A stretch of 64,000 nucleotides of DNA from contig JAJTGD010000015.1 in NCBI GenBank assembly GCA_021299035.1, forward strand, positions 1 through 64,000. The letters are read 5' to 3'. The position numbers and the translations under genes were made by a program. The notes under the pieces were generated by a model. The model did not search any database and was not told the DNA's origin. It saw nothing but the letters and a program-made list of their open reading frames with translations. Of this stretch, positions 22,476 through 26,997 are shown piece by piece (within the stretch, counting starts at the first letter, position 1; each line of letters opens with the position of its first letter). This stretch comes from Oxalobacteraceae bacterium (GTDB lineage: Bacteria; Pseudomonadota; Gammaproteobacteria; Burkholderiales; Burkholderiaceae_D).

Positions 22476-23780
22476 ATGATGAAAGCGAACGGTCGAGTAA
22501 ATTACCTCCCGCGGGAAACCCAGCCCCTTCACTTTCAGCCGACTCCCACCTTCGTCACCATCTTTGGCGATGGCGTCGATCCTTCGAGTGAGGACTGTAT
22601 TCGGCGGGCACTGAGCCGTACGCAAATGCAAAAGTCAGACGTGTTGCTCAGCGAACTTGATATGGGGACTGCTTTGCGGCGAGTAGCGAAGCAATGCGGC
22701 ACCGCAGATAATGTGATGATTCTGGCGCATAGTGAAAACGTGGGACATGAGCCCTCCGATCCGGAATCGCAGCTGCACACAATCGTGTTTTCAGAAAAGC
22801 GCAAGGAGGCAATCCACACAAAGCACTTGCTTTATTTACTCAGGGAAAGCGACACTCGCTCTGGGACCCAGCGATCGCCGAAGCGGATCGTGCACCTGAT
22901 TGGTTGCGGCGCGGGCGCGCTTCGCTCGCAAATCAAACCCAGCGATCCGCTGTGGAAGTCCGCCTATGTGTTGCTCTACTCCAGCAAGAAAACCACCAGC
23001 CTGGATGCCGTCGGAAATTCTGTGGCCGCAGCGATTCGCTATGTCGATCATTGTGACAGGGCCGAGAAGCCGGTCGACCCGCTCAGACTTTTTTACATTG
23101 CTGGGCTGCGGCGTTCGGATTGCATGACGCTGATGGGTGGGAATTTGCAAGCTCCGCTGGTCTGGCACGCGCCGAAGTCGATTCACTCCCTCAATGATCA
23201 CACTTCTCTCGCCACCTTGGACGGAACGGAAAGAGACTTGAAGCGGTTTAACCTCCACGTGAAAAAAACGGGGCCCGAAGAACGCGCATTGATTCCTGAT
23301 GCCTCTTTGCGCGAGTTTCTGTCGGCTCGTATCGCGCATGGCGACGAGGATGCTGTCATGAACGTGGTGGGATCCCACCCGGAGCTTCTGAACTCTCTCT
23401 CAAACACTGGGTTGTCACCGCTCATCGAAGCCCTTGAAGAAAGTGACACCTCTCTACTCACTGAGCTGCTGTCTGCAGGCGCGGACCCCAACTTGCCGAA
23501 TGCGGAAGGAAACACTCCGCTGATGGTGGCGGTCGACCTGCGAGAGAAAGCGGCTATTCCGATACTCCTTAACCACGGCGCGCAATCGGATGTAGGTAAT
23601 CCCTACTCCGCACTCGAGCTATCGGTGCTGGACAACGACGCCGAAATGCTGACGCTGCTGCTGCAGGATGGTTTGGGTTACTCGATCGCCGGACTGAAAA
23701 AGCCGGCGCTACTGGCAAGGACCAGTGGCAACCACGTCTTGCTCGGGTTGTTGCTGAAAGCCCAGTTCCGCACTACGTGA
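22476..23780 (+). CDS. Ankyrin-repeat protein with an unusual N-terminal domain
   Basis: 434 residues, no signal peptide or membrane segment. The C-terminal part (about 275-400) contains ankyrin-type repeats: TGLSPLIEALEESDTSLLTELLSAGADPN, EGNTPLMVAVDLREKAAIPILLNHGAQ and a degenerate unit after it. The N-terminal 230 residues belong to no family I can name. Two blocks recall clan CD cysteine peptidases (caspase, C80, CHAT): a hydrophobic strand leading to histidine, VMILAHSEN (H85), and a second leading to glycine-cysteine, RIVHLIGCGAG (C144), in the order and rough spacing seen there. This is inference from two motifs. No toxin/immunity or secretion signal is evident. ATG 22476 and 22479 are both possible starts. 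Confidence 0.7.
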   Translation: MMKANGRVNYLPRETQPLHFQPTPTFVTIFGDGVDPSSEDCIRRALSRTQMQKSDVLLSELDMGTALRRVAKQCGTADNVMILAHSENVGHEPSDPESQLHTIVFSEKRKEAIHTKHLLYLLRESDTRSGTQRSPKRIVHLIGCGAGALRSQIKPSDPLWKSAYVLLYSSKKTTSLDAVGNSVAAAIRYVDHCDRAEKPVDPLRLFYIAGLRRSDCMTLMGGNLQAPLVWHAPKSIHSLNDHTSLATLDGTERDLKRFNLHVKKTGPEERALIPDASLREFLSARIAHGDEDAVMNVVGSHPELLNSLSNTGLSPLIEALEESDTSLLTELLSAGADPNLPNAEGNTPLMVAVDLREKAAIPILLNHGAQSDVGNPYSALELSVLDNDAEMLTLLLQDGLGYSIAGLKKPALLARTSGNHVLLGLLLKAQFRTT

Positions 23781-23815: not shown

Positions 23816-23836
23816 TGGCGCGGCTGGCGGGGTTCG
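23816..23836 (-). repeat. Duplicated 3' end of tRNA-Arg
   Basis: The 21 bases here match 23961-23981, the 3' part of tRNA-Arg (T-arm to CCA), with one mismatch; the first 17 are identical. The copy lies 145 bases downstream of the tRNA in its direction of transcription, at the far end of the repeat element 23836-23950. A copied tRNA 3' end is the usual footprint of site-specific integration. Confidence 0.75.
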
Positions 23837-23950
23837 CCCACATGCTGCGGGCCGCGGATTCGCTTGCAAGCGAATCCCTTCGATCCCCGTCGAGAGCCAA
23901 ACTATTGGCTCTCTCAAATCCTGAAATGAAAACGCCCACACACGGTGGGC
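23836..23950 (-). repeat. tRNA-associated repeat element, copy 1 (at tRNA-Arg)
   Basis: A 115-bp sequence about 93% identical to 26824-26939 (by eye 7 mismatches and 1 single-base gap), both read in the direction of their tRNA. In order: a GCCCAC/GTGGGC terminator hairpin with a T-rich tail, a hairpin with 9-bp arms GAGAGCCAA and TTGGCTCTC, a perfect 22-bp palindrome (23856-23877), and a closing GTGGGC. It is bounded by tRNA-Arg on one side and a copy of that tRNA's 3' end on the other. It encodes no protein of its own. Confidence 0.75.
23925..23950 (-). terminator. Terminator of tRNA-Arg
   Basis: On the minus strand, stem GCCCAC with GTGGGC, loop of 5 bases, followed by GTTTTCATTT. It begins 10 bases after the CCA end of tRNA-Arg and is shared with the terminator of tRNA-Asp (26824-26850). 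Confidence 0.75.
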
Positions 23951-23960
23951 TTTTGGGTAC

Positions 23961-24036
23961 TGGCGCGGCTGGCGGGGATCGAACCCACGACCCTTGGCTT
24001 CGGAGGCCAATACTCTATCCACTGAGCTACAGCCGC
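23961..24036 (-). tRNA. tRNA-Arg (anticodon CCG)
   Basis: The minus strand starts GCGGCTGTAGCTCAGTGGAT, with the anticodon loop CTCCGAA (anticodon CCG), the T-arm GTGGGTTCGATCCCC and the encoded CCA end. Acceptor arms GCGGCTG and CAGCCGC pair fully. 76 bases including CCA. Decodes CGG. Confidence 0.95.
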
Positions 24037-24182
24037 ATCTGAGAGGCGCCGCGAAGGATACCGGTTTTCAATCGGGCAGTCCATGAAACGCCGACTCGAG
24101 AGGAATCGATTTCCGCGATTCGTCTATAATTTCGGGCTTTGCATGTCTTGCTGGCTTTATGCCACCACCCAACGAGGAAATC

Positions 24183-24716
24183 ATGAGTGACGCCCACAGT
24201 GAATCGCCCATCAAAACGCCGAACCAGCTAATCGCTGTGATCGTCGCCTCTTTCGTCGTACCTATAGCGACAATTCTGCTGCTAGTGAATTTCGTTGGAA
24301 ACACCTCGAAACTAGGCGCCGACAGCGCTTCACAGTCTCCCGAGGCAGTTGCTGAACGTATTCGCCCGGTAGCCGACGTCAGCTTTACGATGCCGGATCA
24401 GCCAGAGGGCGCACCGGCTCACGCTGCGGCTGGAGGTGCGGTGGCGCTGAAATCCGGCGAGCAGGTCTACAACGCTGCATGCGCAGCCTGCCATGGCGCA
24501 GGGGTTGCCGGCGCTCCCAAGAAGGGTGACTCAGGCGCCTGGTCGGCACGTATCGGTCAAGGCTATGACACGCTGGTCTCACACGCGATCAAAGGCATTC
24601 GCGGTATGCCCGCCAAGGGCGGTAATGCCAGTTTGGATGACATTGAAGTCGCGCGCGCCGTAGTTCATTTGGCCAATGCCTCTGGCGCGAAGTTTAAAGA
24701 GCCTGCAGCAAAATAG
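24183..24716 (+). CDS. Cytochrome c5-type c-type cytochrome
   Basis: 177 residues from ATG 24183, which has GAGG 8 bases before it. One N-terminal membrane anchor (about 15-38), a spacer rich in Ala/Pro, then a class I cytochrome c domain with the haem motif C100-A-A-C103-H104 and the axial methionine in GIRGMPAKGG. The domain is of cytochrome c5 type, exposed to the periplasm, and moves electrons to terminal oxidases or other acceptors. A TATAAT at 24125-24130 may be its -10 box; no good -35 is seen. It stands alone, divergent from tRNA-Arg. Confidence 0.88.
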   Translation: MSDAHSESPIKTPNQLIAVIVASFVVPIATILLLVNFVGNTSKLGADSASQSPEAVAERIRPVADVSFTMPDQPEGAPAHAAAGGAVALKSGEQVYNAACAACHGAGVAGAPKKGDSGAWSARIGQGYDTLVSHAIKGIRGMPAKGGNASLDDIEVARAVVHLANASGAKFKEPAAK

Positions 24717-24753
24717 TTCGTCTGCTGACCATGGCGTCGTCGAGTGCCGACGC

Positions 24754-25053
24754 CTAGTGGTCTCTCTGCCGCAAAAATACCCAGGCTGCTGCGGCCGCCG
24801 CAAGCGCCAACAAAGCGGGCTTCAGCAAACGACTGCCACGAGCGCGCCCGAATAGCCATGGCACTGCGGTGGCGACTAGGGACATCCGCTTGTGCGCCAG
24901 CACAAACTTCAACAAACCAAACAGCTGCCCCCCGACTGCCTTGGGTTTGGCCGCCTCCTTCAGCGCCACTCTGGCCTGAATAATCTCTAACCGATAAAGC
25001 GCGCCTTGTAACATCAGCAGCTTGCAACGCGCCTCACGCTCTGCACGGCTCAT
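24754..25053 (-). CDS. YqjK-like protein
   Basis: 99 residues. The N-terminal half is basic and amphipathic (REARCKLLMLQGALYRLEIIQARVALKEAAKP); a hydrophobic stretch near the C-terminus (LLKPALLALAAAAAAWVFL) suggests a membrane tail. Its place as the last gene of a DUF883-YqjE-YqjK set, overlapping yqjE by 4 bases, is the main basis for the name. Function unknown. Confidence 0.7.
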   Translation of the reverse strand: MSRAEREARCKLLMLQGALYRLEIIQARVALKEAAKPKAVGGQLFGLLKFVLAHKRMSLVATAVPWLFGRARGSRLLKPALLALAAAAAAWVFLRQRDH

Positions 25054-25463
25054 ACTTTTTGCTCCGTATCGTCATGCTGATCCAGCAGCGCAGCGCGGTC
25101 TTTTTCTAGCTCGGCGAGCGTGGTCGGGAATCCGATTTGTCCACTGGCGATTATGCTGCGCGCTTTCCAGAGCATGCCTAAGGTCAGCAGCAAGTAAGCC
25201 AAAAACAGAATCAGCAGAATACGCCAGCCCATCGCATCCCACGCCAGCGCGATAATCATGGCGGATAGACTTAATAGCGCGAACGCTGCAGCTAGCACGG
25301 CCAGCGCCCCGAGCAGCAGCACGCGCAACACCGCGTCGCGCGCATCGGCCAACTCCATAACCGCCATCGACAAACGCACCCCAACCAGTTTGAGCACGCT
25401 CGTGATCATGGTGCCGACGCTTGAAGCAAGGCCGCTAGCGGGCGGCTCGGCCGATGCGTTCAT
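25050..25463 (-). CDS. YqjE/phage-holin-family membrane protein
   Basis: 137 residues with two long hydrophobic segments (about 47-70 and 79-100) between amphipathic ends, typical of the YqjE (holin superfamily III) family. It lies 3 bases after the DUF883 gene and overlaps the YqjK-like gene by 4 bases. In E. coli the yqjDEK set codes for inner-membrane proteins induced in stationary phase; a stress or envelope role here is inference. Confidence 0.82.
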   Translation of the reverse strand: MNASAEPPASGLASSVGTMITSVLKLVGVRLSMAVMELADARDAVLRVLLLGALAVLAAAFALLSLSAMIIALAWDAMGWRILLILFLAYLLLTLGMLWKARSIIASGQIGFPTTLAELEKDRAALLDQHDDTEQKV

Positions 25464-25466
25464 TGC

Positions 25467-25769
25467 TCAGCGCCGTGCGATCAGCATGCCCACCAACAGA
25501 CCGACGGCTCCCGCAATGCCGATGGCGCGCCAAGGATACTCATGCACATACTCATCGGTGTCATGGGCAATCTTGCGTCCTTTTTGAACTGCGGCGTCCT
25601 GCAAGTCATGCGCACGCGTGATCGCATGATCCAGCATCTTCATACCCTTCGAACGCAACTCTTCTGCTTTGGCGCCGCCGGCACTAGTCGCCTCATCAAA
25701 CAAAGCCTGAGCATCGCGCACCAGTGCTTTGAGATCATTGCGGGCAGTCGTGGTCGTGGAATCGGACAT
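25467..25769 (-). CDS. DUF883 family protein (YqjD/ElaB-like)
   Basis: 100 residues from ATG 25769, with AGGAG 8 bases upstream. A long amphipathic helical region (NDLKALVRDAQALFDEATSA and onwards) is followed by a C-terminal membrane helix (GIAGAVGLLVGMLIAR) after YVHEYPWRA, the conserved DUF883 block. E. coli YqjD and ElaB are C-tail anchored inner-membrane proteins that bind ribosomes in stationary phase. First gene of the three-gene operon 24754-25769. Confidence 0.88.
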   Translation of the reverse strand: MSDSTTTTARNDLKALVRDAQALFDEATSAGGAKAEELRSKGMKMLDHAITRAHDLQDAAVQKGRKIAHDTDEYVHEYPWRAIGIAGAVGLLVGMLIARR

Positions 25770-25848
25770 CGGGACTCTCCTTGGAAGAAACGAGCTGAAG
25801 ATCATACGCCTGCATGGTCGTCACCCAAACAAAGACCATGCCCATTAC

Positions 25849-26619
25849 TCAAGCAAGACCGTAACGAATTTTGTACCAGAGGATTCCTATCCACTCATGC
25901 AATGCATAGCTACTGGTCTCCAATTCACTGGCCTTCGGAATGAAACTCGCGATATCAATCGGTCGCCGTCCAAGAAACCGGGTGGGTGCAACAACAACCT
26001 CAAACCCCGCCGTCACAAACGCACGCTTAGCACGCGGCATATGCATAGCGTCAGTCACCAACAAGATACGGTGCACGCCGTCGACGGCTAATTGCTGCGC
26101 AGCATGCTTGGCATTTTCTGCCGTGTTGTCGGATGTTTGCTCTTGCCAACGGGCTGTCACACCAAAATCCTCACGGAGTGTGCGCGCCATCAATGCTGCT
26201 TCGCTTTCGCCGAGTGTGTCTGGGGCACCGCCACTGACCAGCACCGGAAGACCGGTCAGACGATGCAGCCGTGCGCCGTGCCGCAAGCGCATCAGCGTTG
26301 CGGTGGAGGGTTGGTCCCGTCCGGCATCTTCCGGCGCGCCGTACACCCGCCCGCCACCGAGAATGACGATGGCATGGGCGCCGCTTTGCGATGGGACGGC
26401 CAGTGGTAAGGCGGCACTCTCCAACGGCGCAACCAACAAGCGCGAACCTGCTTGCGTCGAGAGGCCGATCAAGAGCAGCGCTGCCAGCGCGACGATTACT
26501 CGCCCGACAACGCGCCAGCGATAAGCCAGCCAGCTGCCGAGTAGGGCAAGCAGTACTAGCGATAGGGGCGGCAACAACAGCGCGGCAACCGCATTGGTGA
26601 CTAACCAGGACAGACTCAC
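25849..26619 (-). CDS. YdcF/ElyC family protein (DUF218)
   Basis: 256 residues. Two N-terminal membrane helices (about 5-30 and 37-60) precede a DUF218 domain with AHAIVILGGGRVYG, RLHRLTGLPVLVSGG, GESEAALMARTL, SDNTAENAKHAA and VTDAMHMPRAKRAF. In E. coli the paralog ElyC affects envelope polysaccharide (ECA/peptidoglycan) synthesis. The reaction of this protein is not known. It stands alone, between the yqj-like operon and tRNA-Asp. Confidence 0.85.
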   Translation of the reverse strand: MSLSWLVTNAVAALLLPPLSLVLLALLGSWLAYRWRVVGRVIVALAALLLIGLSTQAGSRLLVAPLESAALPLAVPSQSGAHAIVILGGGRVYGAPEDAGRDQPSTATLMRLRHGARLHRLTGLPVLVSGGAPDTLGESEAALMARTLREDFGVTARWQEQTSDNTAENAKHAAQQLAVDGVHRILLVTDAMHMPRAKRAFVTAGFEVVVAPTRFLGRRPIDIASFIPKASELETSSYALHEWIGILWYKIRYGLA

Positions 26620-26674
26620 AGCGGCTCAGGCCTCCGAAAAAGATCGTCGTCAAATGGCTGCGGCGCCGGGCTGC

Positions 26675-26703
26675 TCGACACTGAACCGACGGTTGGGTAC
26701 AAT
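26675..26703 (+). promoter_or_regulatory. Sigma-70 promoter of tRNA-Asp
   Basis: TCGACA (26675-26680) and TACAAT (26698-26703) at 17-base spacing, 33 bases before the mature tRNA. Five of six bases match in each box. Confidence 0.6.
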
Positions 26704-26735
26704 TCGCCCCTTTCGCGCGCCGCAAGCGCTCGATT

Positions 26736-26812
26736 GGAGCGGTAGTTCAGTTGGTTAGAATACCGGCCTGTCACGCCGGGGGTCGCGGGTTCGAGCCCCG
26801 TCCGCTCCGCCA
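26736..26812 (+). tRNA. tRNA-Asp (anticodon GTC)
   Basis: Begins GGAGCGGTAGTTCAGTTGGT, anticodon loop CTGTCAC (GTC), T-arm GCGGGTTCGAGCCCCGT, acceptor CCGCTCC and encoded GCCA end. 77 bases. Followed 11 bases later by a terminator hairpin. Confidence 0.96.
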
Positions 26813-26850
26813 GTTTCTCAGATGCCCACCTTGTGTGGGCATTTTCATTT
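26792..26850 (+). repeat. 59-bp direct repeat, copy A (tRNA-Asp 3' end plus terminator)
   Basis: From the T-loop of tRNA-Asp through its terminator. It is identical over all 59 bases to 26939-26997, 147 bases downstream. The duplicated part starts at the T-loop, as at tRNA-Arg. Confidence 0.9.
26824..26850 (+). terminator. Terminator of tRNA-Asp
   Basis: GCCCAC, loop CTTGT, GTGGGC, then ATTTTCATTT. A second identical copy lies at 26971-26997 within the direct repeat. Confidence 0.8.
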
Positions 26851-26939
26851 CCAGGAGCGGAGAGAGCCAATAGTTTGGCTCTCGACGGGGATCGAAGGGA
26901 TTCGCTTACAAGCGAATCCGCGGCCCGCAGGATGTGGGC
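26824..26939 (+). repeat. tRNA-associated repeat element, copy 2 (at tRNA-Asp)
   Basis: 116 bp; same order of parts as copy 1 at 23836-23950: terminator hairpin, hairpin with GAGAGCCAA/TTGGCTCTC arms (26872-26883 loop region), a near-perfect GGATTCGCTT/AAGCGAATCC palindrome, and a closing GTGGGC that runs straight into the second tRNA 3' copy. Short open frames crossing it are the same in both loci and look non-genic. Confidence 0.78.
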
Positions 26940-26997
26940 GAGCCCCGTCCGCTCCGCCAGTTTCTCAGATGCCCACCTTGTGTGGGCATTTTCATTT
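26939..26997 (+). repeat. 59-bp direct repeat, copy B (displaced tRNA-Asp 3' end)
   Basis: Identical to 26792-26850. It contains the T-arm and acceptor 3' strand of tRNA-Asp with CCA, but no 5' part, so it is not a tRNA gene. It marks the distal end of the element. Confidence 0.9.

Follow-up and report, generated by a model that had tools for sequence, protein, structure and literature searches.

A tRNA-linked family of short non-coding repeats with a covarying fold and a fixed T-loop junction in Oxalobacteraceae and related Burkholderiales

Two tRNA genes in a 64,000-nucleotide stretch of an Oxalobacteraceae bacterium (GCA_021299035.1, contig JAJTGD010000015.1, positions 1 to 64,000; hereafter the window) are each followed by a short non-coding repeat and, behind it, by a second copy of the 3′ end of the same tRNA, which we call the tail copy. 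On balance, we favor reading this unit as a minimal non-coding integrative element that carries its own tRNA 3′ end and is moved in trans by a site-specific recombinase. The observations behind this reading are a fixed junction in the T-loop, a covarying fold, arms that fit the unit's own tRNA, tandem units, truncated and empty sites, and one split tRNA-Gln. No account of the family was found in the literature searched, which covered few older subscription papers.

Two units in the window

A first-pass annotation, made from the letters of the window, had described two repeats about 93% identical and with the same order of parts behind tRNA-Arg and tRNA-Asp, and both the coordinates and the parts held. 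In a search of the whole own genome, the Arg-side core (23836-23950) matched the Asp-side query with 93% identity (E 2.2e-43). The repeated tRNA ends were also as described. At tRNA-Asp the duplication consists of 59 identical bases (26792-26850 and 26939-26997, period 147) and takes in the tRNA-Asp terminator; at tRNA-Arg it is limited to the 21 bases C56-A76 with one mismatch (tail copy at 23816-23836, period 145). In both, the duplicated segment starts in the T-loop, at C56, in agreement with the annotation. Several features had escaped it: an inverted copy of the T-arm, GACGGGGATCGAA, which is present in both cores and can pair with the tail copy; the position of the terminator within the Asp duplication; the covarying fold; the likeness to the RtT repeats of E. 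coli; and the number of copies in the own genome, which is seven with a covariance model, not two.

A family linked to tRNA genes

By BLAST, the 88-base Asp core had matches in 12 of 96 genomes, the own genome included. Because these matches showed one architecture with changing sequence, a covariance model, R1, was built from 11 copies; it comprises hairpin 1, the closing helix P0, hairpin 2 and hairpin 3, P0 being formed by the inverted T-arm and the T-part of the tail copy. Searches of more than 40 genomes ran with stricter filters, at the cost of weak matches. With R1, 149 of the 294 genomes sampled from the window's family, belonging to 27 of 44 genera, were positive, as were 15 of 399 genomes of the order; of these 15, seven lie outside the window's family, in four other families. 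In the class sample the only positive among 369 genomes was the own genome. Scanning named genomes with a pattern that left out the tail gave 89 stretches, 80 of which became loci; the 80 listed are titled Burkholderiales or Betaproteobacteria and include Massilia, Herbaspirillum, Cupriavidus and Burkholderia. A separate pattern matched 8 of 378 genomes of a phylum sample, among which inspection of the letters confirmed the element only in the own genome and in G037; this pattern is insensitive, as it found nothing in G047, G447 and G598, all with R1 matches.

The 266 matches in the fetched loci represent 180 distinct copies, a lower bound since loci were fetched for at most 30 matches per genome search. 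The first-pass annotation had proposed measuring the distance of each copy to a tRNA gene, and for 160 of the 180 a tRNA gene on the same strand ends no more than 400 nucleotides upstream; the core thus does not lie mostly away from tRNA genes. The linked copies follow tRNA-Asp (84), Ser (40), Glu (20), Leu (10), Arg (4), Thr (1) and Gly (1), and all 160 share the strand of their tRNA. The Gly-linked copy is the one that splits a tRNA-Gln gene (see below) and was removed from the arm-fit analysis, leaving 159. None of the 20 unlinked copies has a tRNA within 400 nucleotides in any orientation. For seven of them a tRNA lies further upstream; six are later units of tandem arrays, and at locus L188 the tRNA is 8 kb away, past an island-like segment. 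The other 13 have no same-strand tRNA upstream in the locus, in some cases owing to a contig end there. The linkage could be inflated, as the R1 seed copies were nearly all tRNA-linked and the model includes nine paired bases of the tail; in the loci from the tail-free pattern scan, 89 of 98 copies were linked. As a rough yardstick, about 0.2% of strand positions lie within 400 nucleotides 3′ of a tRNA (51 tRNAs in the 5.4 Mb of genome G035).

A covarying fold closed by the tail copy

The core folds into one hairpin followed by a three-way junction, which is closed by the pairing of the inverted T-arm with the tail copy. When single sequences were folded, the modelled form was the minimum-energy structure in seven of eight copies, the exception being the Asp copy of G037. 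Among the 11 copies of the model, 96.2% of paired cells were complementary, as against 79.3% when shuffled and at most 47.2% when slid, and 19 of 34 pairs changed on both sides. For 50 distinct rows of a wider alignment that had been fitted to R1, the values were 96.9%, 78.1% and 47.2%, with both-side changes in 24 of 34 pairs.

On the Arg side (minus strand), the last 21 bases (C56-A76, 23961-23981) of tRNA-Arg(CCG) (23961-24036) form the left copy of the duplicated end. The sequence then has a terminator-like hairpin with a T-run (23924-23952) ahead of hairpin 1, GAGAGCCAA TAGT TTGGCTCTC (23892-23913). The inverted T-arm, the 5′ strand of P0, occupies 23879-23891, in keeping with the fit of P0 to the own tRNA; hairpin 2, a perfect 22-base palindrome GGATTCGCTTGCAAGCGAATCC, is at 23856-23877. 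Hairpin 3, GCCCGCAGCATGTGGGC (23836-23852), has the kept G.T wobble and a GNA loop, and its last C is C56 at the junction with the tail copy (23816-23836).

The Asp side (plus strand) is built alike. The left copy is made by the last 21 bases (26792-26812) of tRNA-Asp(GTC) (26736-26812), and the terminator-like hairpin and T-run (26821-26850) lie within the 59-base duplication. The motif GGAGCGG (26854-26860) is the 5′ strand of a second helix, P1, and is complementary to the tail copy's acceptor 3′ half. It is followed by hairpin 1 (26862-26883), the inverted T-arm as 5′ strand of P0 (26884-26896), the hairpin 2 palindrome GGATTCGCTTACAAGCGAATCC (26898-26919), hairpin 3, GCCCGCAGGATGTGGGC (26923-26939), the identical copy of C56-A76 (26939-26959) and the second copy of the terminator region (26960-26997).

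The kinds of pairs differ between helices, in counts drawn from the rows of three partly overlapping alignments. P0 has 141 G.T pairs versus 51 A.C, and one column of hairpin 3 is a G.T wobble in 200 of 208 rows; these two features speak for the tRNA-sense strand as the one that folds. Hairpin 1 has a weak bias (31 to 15) and hairpin 2 none (7 to 11). Both-side changes outnumber one-side changes by 160 cells to 5 in hairpin 1 and by 52 to 1 in hairpin 2, which looks more like DNA palindromes or hairpin-templated correction than like an RNA stem, a comparison made without an RNA control. Terminator-like structures separate the tRNA from the core in 106 of the 132 first units. A cmscan of nine loci gave only tRNA above the cut-off and no other known RNA family. 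GNA-type loops, including GCGAAGC, recur in hairpin 3 (L211) and in the spacer of E. coli tyrT (L280); such loops give very stable DNA mini-hairpins.

Arms that fit the carrying tRNA

Over the 159 copies, the mean fit of P0 was 9.67 to the T-arm of the own tRNA, 7.43 to other isotypes and 4.35 to shuffled arms. The own tRNA scored above the mean of the others in 144 copies and at least as high as the best other in 129. P0 cannot separate Glu from Ser(GGA), their T-arms being in agreement. The second arm, P1, precedes hairpin 1 and matches the acceptor 3′ half, with mean fits of 6.25 (own), 4.29 (others) and 3.86 (shuffled); the own tRNA exceeded the mean in 120 copies and equalled or exceeded the best other in 106. 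By P1, the four Arg copies and the one Thr copy do not favor their own tRNA, and 21 of the 159 copies, including 13 Asp copies, have a P1 that suits another isotype better by at least 2.

A fixed junction in the T-loop and a split tRNA-Gln

The duplicated 3′ end, which the first-pass annotation had proposed to look for at each hit, is frequent and not universal: a tail copy was found in 90 of 132 first units, and 56 of the 159 copies have none. Where present, its left edge lies 21 nucleotides from A76, at C56, in 79 of the 90 (12-20 nucleotides in the other 11); the right edge varies from 0 to 79 nucleotides past CCA. The joint between hairpin 3 and tail reads GGC/GA in 150 of 173 readable copies. 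As hairpin 3 usually ends in C, the true joint is placed within C56-A58.

In one locus (L075, the same place as L017, contig C84 of G035), the element lies within a tRNA-Gln(TTG) gene. Without intron search, aragorn found no tRNA in the occupied sequence; once 87 bases are taken out within the T-loop, a canonical 76-nucleotide tRNA-Gln is recovered. The insertion point is C56-A58 and no finer, since CGA is common to both joints, and there is no target duplication beyond this CGA. As a control, 5832 joined sequences were made from 48 copies, namely the split-Gln copy and 47 copies without a tRNA within 110 nucleotides upstream; only the split-Gln copy gave a tRNA, in three neighboring joins (76-78 nucleotides). 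Elsewhere G035 carries a second, intact tRNA-Gln(TTG), and the genome also has an intact tRNA-Trp, so the split gene is redundant; an intron was considered and dropped given the intact tRNA-Gln(TTG). Beyond G035, matches to the tRNA-Gln cluster among the genomes of 148 relatives cover tRNA parts only, mostly at 76-82% identity. Beside the split gene, a tRNA-Trp(CCA)-like gene carries a different hairpin repeat with TGCGTAACG (G035:C84:49927-50081), which seems to be placed in its variable loop. A repeat similar to the TGCGTAACG type is scattered in G052 (L195-L197), where aragorn found no tRNA.

These results bear on whether the unit is simply a palindromic family of the repetitive extragenic palindrome (REP) or miniature inverted-repeat transposable element (MITE) type, spread by a hairpin-specific transposase with a chance preference for tRNA ends. 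REP and REPIN sequences are likewise short intergenic palindromes, the palindromes here are near-perfect with changing sequence, and the hairpin repeat of G052, which is loosely related, is scattered with no tRNA in the three loci read. The element differs by its tRNA link, fixed junction and isotype-matched arms: a dispersed family would lie without a link to tRNA ends, and 160 of the 180 copies have one. With the lack of target duplication at tRNA-Gln added, we consider this explanation very improbable.

Lineages, arrays and site variants

A tree made from the hairpins (160 rows, 67 columns) is mostly weakly resolved, with 66 of 144 inner branches open. Amino-acid labels change 20 times on it versus 68.2 when shuffled, and genus labels 61 versus 106.8 times. 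That amino-acid labels change far less than shuffled ones points to isotype lineages with some moves between them. The Arg and Asp copies of the window fall in the same starred set, made of four Arg and four Asp rows.

Empty sites in relatives, for which the first-pass annotation had suggested looking, were seen at the Asp locus, where 15 of 25 matches within the genus were read. There are two units in G016, one unit in the own genome, G007 and G020, a unit with a remnant in G009, and truncated units in G005 and G001; the site of G012 is empty and has a single terminator. Five loci of a second tRNA-Asp gene are without the element, and two loci are cut by contig ends. Among 18 tRNA-Arg loci, five have the element; the 13 without it are in another upstream context. 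Larger arrays occur elsewhere, with five units at L199 and six near-identical units at L201.

In the window, ssb and the Arg-side element are separated by an ankyrin-repeat gene (22476-23780). Directly past the tail copy, G009 and G001 have other sequence, which resembles the end of ssb.

Island-like segments with the same end point

On contig C61 of the own genome and contig C142 of G016, tRNA-Ser tails that follow foreign sequence start at G57, for example GATAG/GAATCCC. Near these tRNA-Ser island-like segments there are repeats of the form GGGTAAAA, which resemble integrase arm sites. An AbiEii gene and a caspase-MORN protein are among the cargo between copies; no integrase was identified in these segments, of which only some proteins were scanned. 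At L082, a tyrosine-integrase gene adjoins a copy of the element.

One explanation for the units is that they are the att regions left when tRNA islands were lost. The island-like segments between tRNA-Ser copies, with the same letters at the joint, would suit such an origin. A single covarying fold over 27 of 44 genera and four other families would be unexpected for a left-over att region, and so would arrays of up to six near-identical units (L201), and we regard this origin as unlikely. An integron-like cassette array at tRNA-Ser was likewise considered and dropped, as the larger segments resemble ordinary islands that inserted into the tails.

Further observations at these loci are as follows. 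An AbiEii-type toxin gene lies between or beside copies behind tRNA-Ser at L184 in the own genome, G000 (G000:C61:93000-99500; by Pfam) and at L074/L187 (G006:C93; by letters). The 8-kb segment of L188 (G016:C142), between two copies behind tRNA-Ser(CGA), encodes three large proteins that resemble each other; the one that was scanned combines a caspase domain with MORN repeats. At L186/L004 (G000:C63), near a contig end, a tRNA-less copy with a tRNA-Ser-like tail is directly beside a serine resolvase gene.

Relation to the E. coli tyrT repeats and other known systems

The closest known counterpart is RtT (Rfam RF00391). The tyrT/tyrV repeats of E. coli also lie 3′ of a tRNA, in tandem, with a copy of the tRNA end (in tyrT, 19 terminal bases identical to the tRNA 3′ end), an inverted T-arm that pairs with it, hairpins between the two and a CCA end. 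They contain GGGGAAGGAT, the inverse of the tail's ATCCTTCCCC, and two units folded without constraint adopt the GGGGAAGGAT/ATCCTTCCCC pairing; this pairing is the outer helix of RF00391, as it is the closing helix of the element. RtT differs in that it is found only at tRNA-Tyr in the K-12 region read and in its inner hairpins. RF00391 was above its cut-off in none of eight Burkholderiales genomes (best 21.3 bits versus 45), and R1 scored at most 10 bits in E. coli tyrT. The two are alike in plan and not detectably members of the same family.

This likeness raises the possibility that the unit is an RNA gene: a transcribed 3′ extension of the tRNA that tRNA-processing enzymes would cut out and that would persist because the folded, CCA-ended RNA has a function, with its copy number changing by slippage and moves between tRNAs being rare accidents. 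The shared plan and outer helix would suit this, as would the strand agreement of all 160 linked copies, the G.T excess in P0 and the G.T column of hairpin 3; in the predicted folds, P1 and P0 with CCA resemble an acceptor/T-stem minihelix. Less easily accommodated are the terminator-like structures ahead of the core in most first units, the 56 copies with no tail, and hairpins 1 and 2, where nearly always both sides change and hairpin 2 lacks a G.T bias, a behavior that we think unusual for an RNA stem. We hold the RNA gene to be possible and distinctly the less probable explanation.

tRNA-targeting islands resemble the units in another way. According to PMC4383910, the Islander procedure recognizes them by two marks, a tRNA that has been restored and a fragment that has been displaced. 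The T loop is among the crossover subsites named there, and candidates below 2 kb or without an integrase are discarded, so that units of about 150 bases could not appear in the Islander output. The split tRNA, the carried 3′ fragment that restores the gene and the displaced fragment that marks the end are common to both. The window units differ by repeating every 145-147 bases, a period that leaves no room for an integrase gene, so that they carry none, and by their one conserved fold. Passages of two further papers, on tRNA fragments in archaea (PMC9897764) and on transcription starts in Burkholderia (PMC4603805), name no such element.

Integron attC sites and the folded attP of CTX-type phages are recombination sites kept by structure and folded from one strand. 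The element would resemble them, by analogy only, in a single-strand fold that is kept by structure; its target is the T-loop of a tRNA.

How the units may move

We propose that the element, as a circle, would have the order tRNA 3′ end (approximately G57-A76), a short spacer often with a terminator, and the folded core, closed where the C ending hairpin 3 meets G57. Insertion would take place within C56-A58, in the T-loop of a tRNA gene. The carried 3′ end would replace the tRNA's own end, leaving the gene functional, and the original end would be pushed behind the core, where it becomes the second copy. As the tRNA would survive only with a cognate tail, elements would be sorted into isotype lineages. 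The process would be a conservative site-specific recombination, most likely by a tyrosine integrase belonging to the island-like segments whose ends share this point, acting in trans and possibly on a folded single strand; slippage would account for tandem growth and loss.

The footprint of insertion into tRNA ends that the first-pass annotation had seen is thus strengthened by the tRNA linkage, the truncated and empty Asp sites and the tRNA-Gln split in its T-loop. Its further suggestion, a non-autonomous element mobilized in trans, gained no such backing: no trans-acting recombinase, circle or recent transfer was found, and this weighs against our proposal, as do the following points. A pattern scan of viral contigs gave no copy of the element, and blastn of a 100-base window core against phages and plasmids gave chance pieces only and no real match. 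We know of no ordinary tyrosine integrase that needs such a fold. Copies without a tail fit their tRNA equally well, which integration by itself does not predict. One Arg copy (G016, L029) joins the Asp-like GGAGCGG arm to an Arg tail, which a simple crossover would not give; the Asp copy lies 2.7 kb away, and the arm may have come from it by gene conversion. Target-site duplication, raised by the same mixture of arm and tail, was not adopted, as the tRNA-Gln insertion has none beyond CGA. Only one of the 48 copies tested splits a tRNA, and, judged from the extent of the matches, no empty version of the tRNA-Gln cluster was found among the genomes of the 148 relatives. The few amino-acid label changes on the tree fit long inheritance, and much of the distribution may be inherited; the empty Asp site of G012 could reflect loss by slippage.

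A bolder version of the integrative reading, which we offer as a speculation and think rather doubtful, is that the units are the smallest site-specific integrative elements known: attC-like cassettes for which the tRNA gene acts as "attI", with a single-strand fold that would mimic the T-arm/acceptor duplex, insertion in trans between C56 and G57, and the E. coli tyrT repeats as an old member.

If the proposal of an integrative element is true, the E. coli tyrT repeats would pass from a single curiosity to one of a class of tRNA-linked elements with an insertion rule. The family would form a new size class of tRNA-targeting mobile DNA, of about 150 bases and without genes, which Islander, as described in PMC4383910, excludes by design. 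Recombination in the T-loop with a folded substrate would become testable, and many of the partial tRNA ends in Burkholderiales genomes may be explained by these elements.

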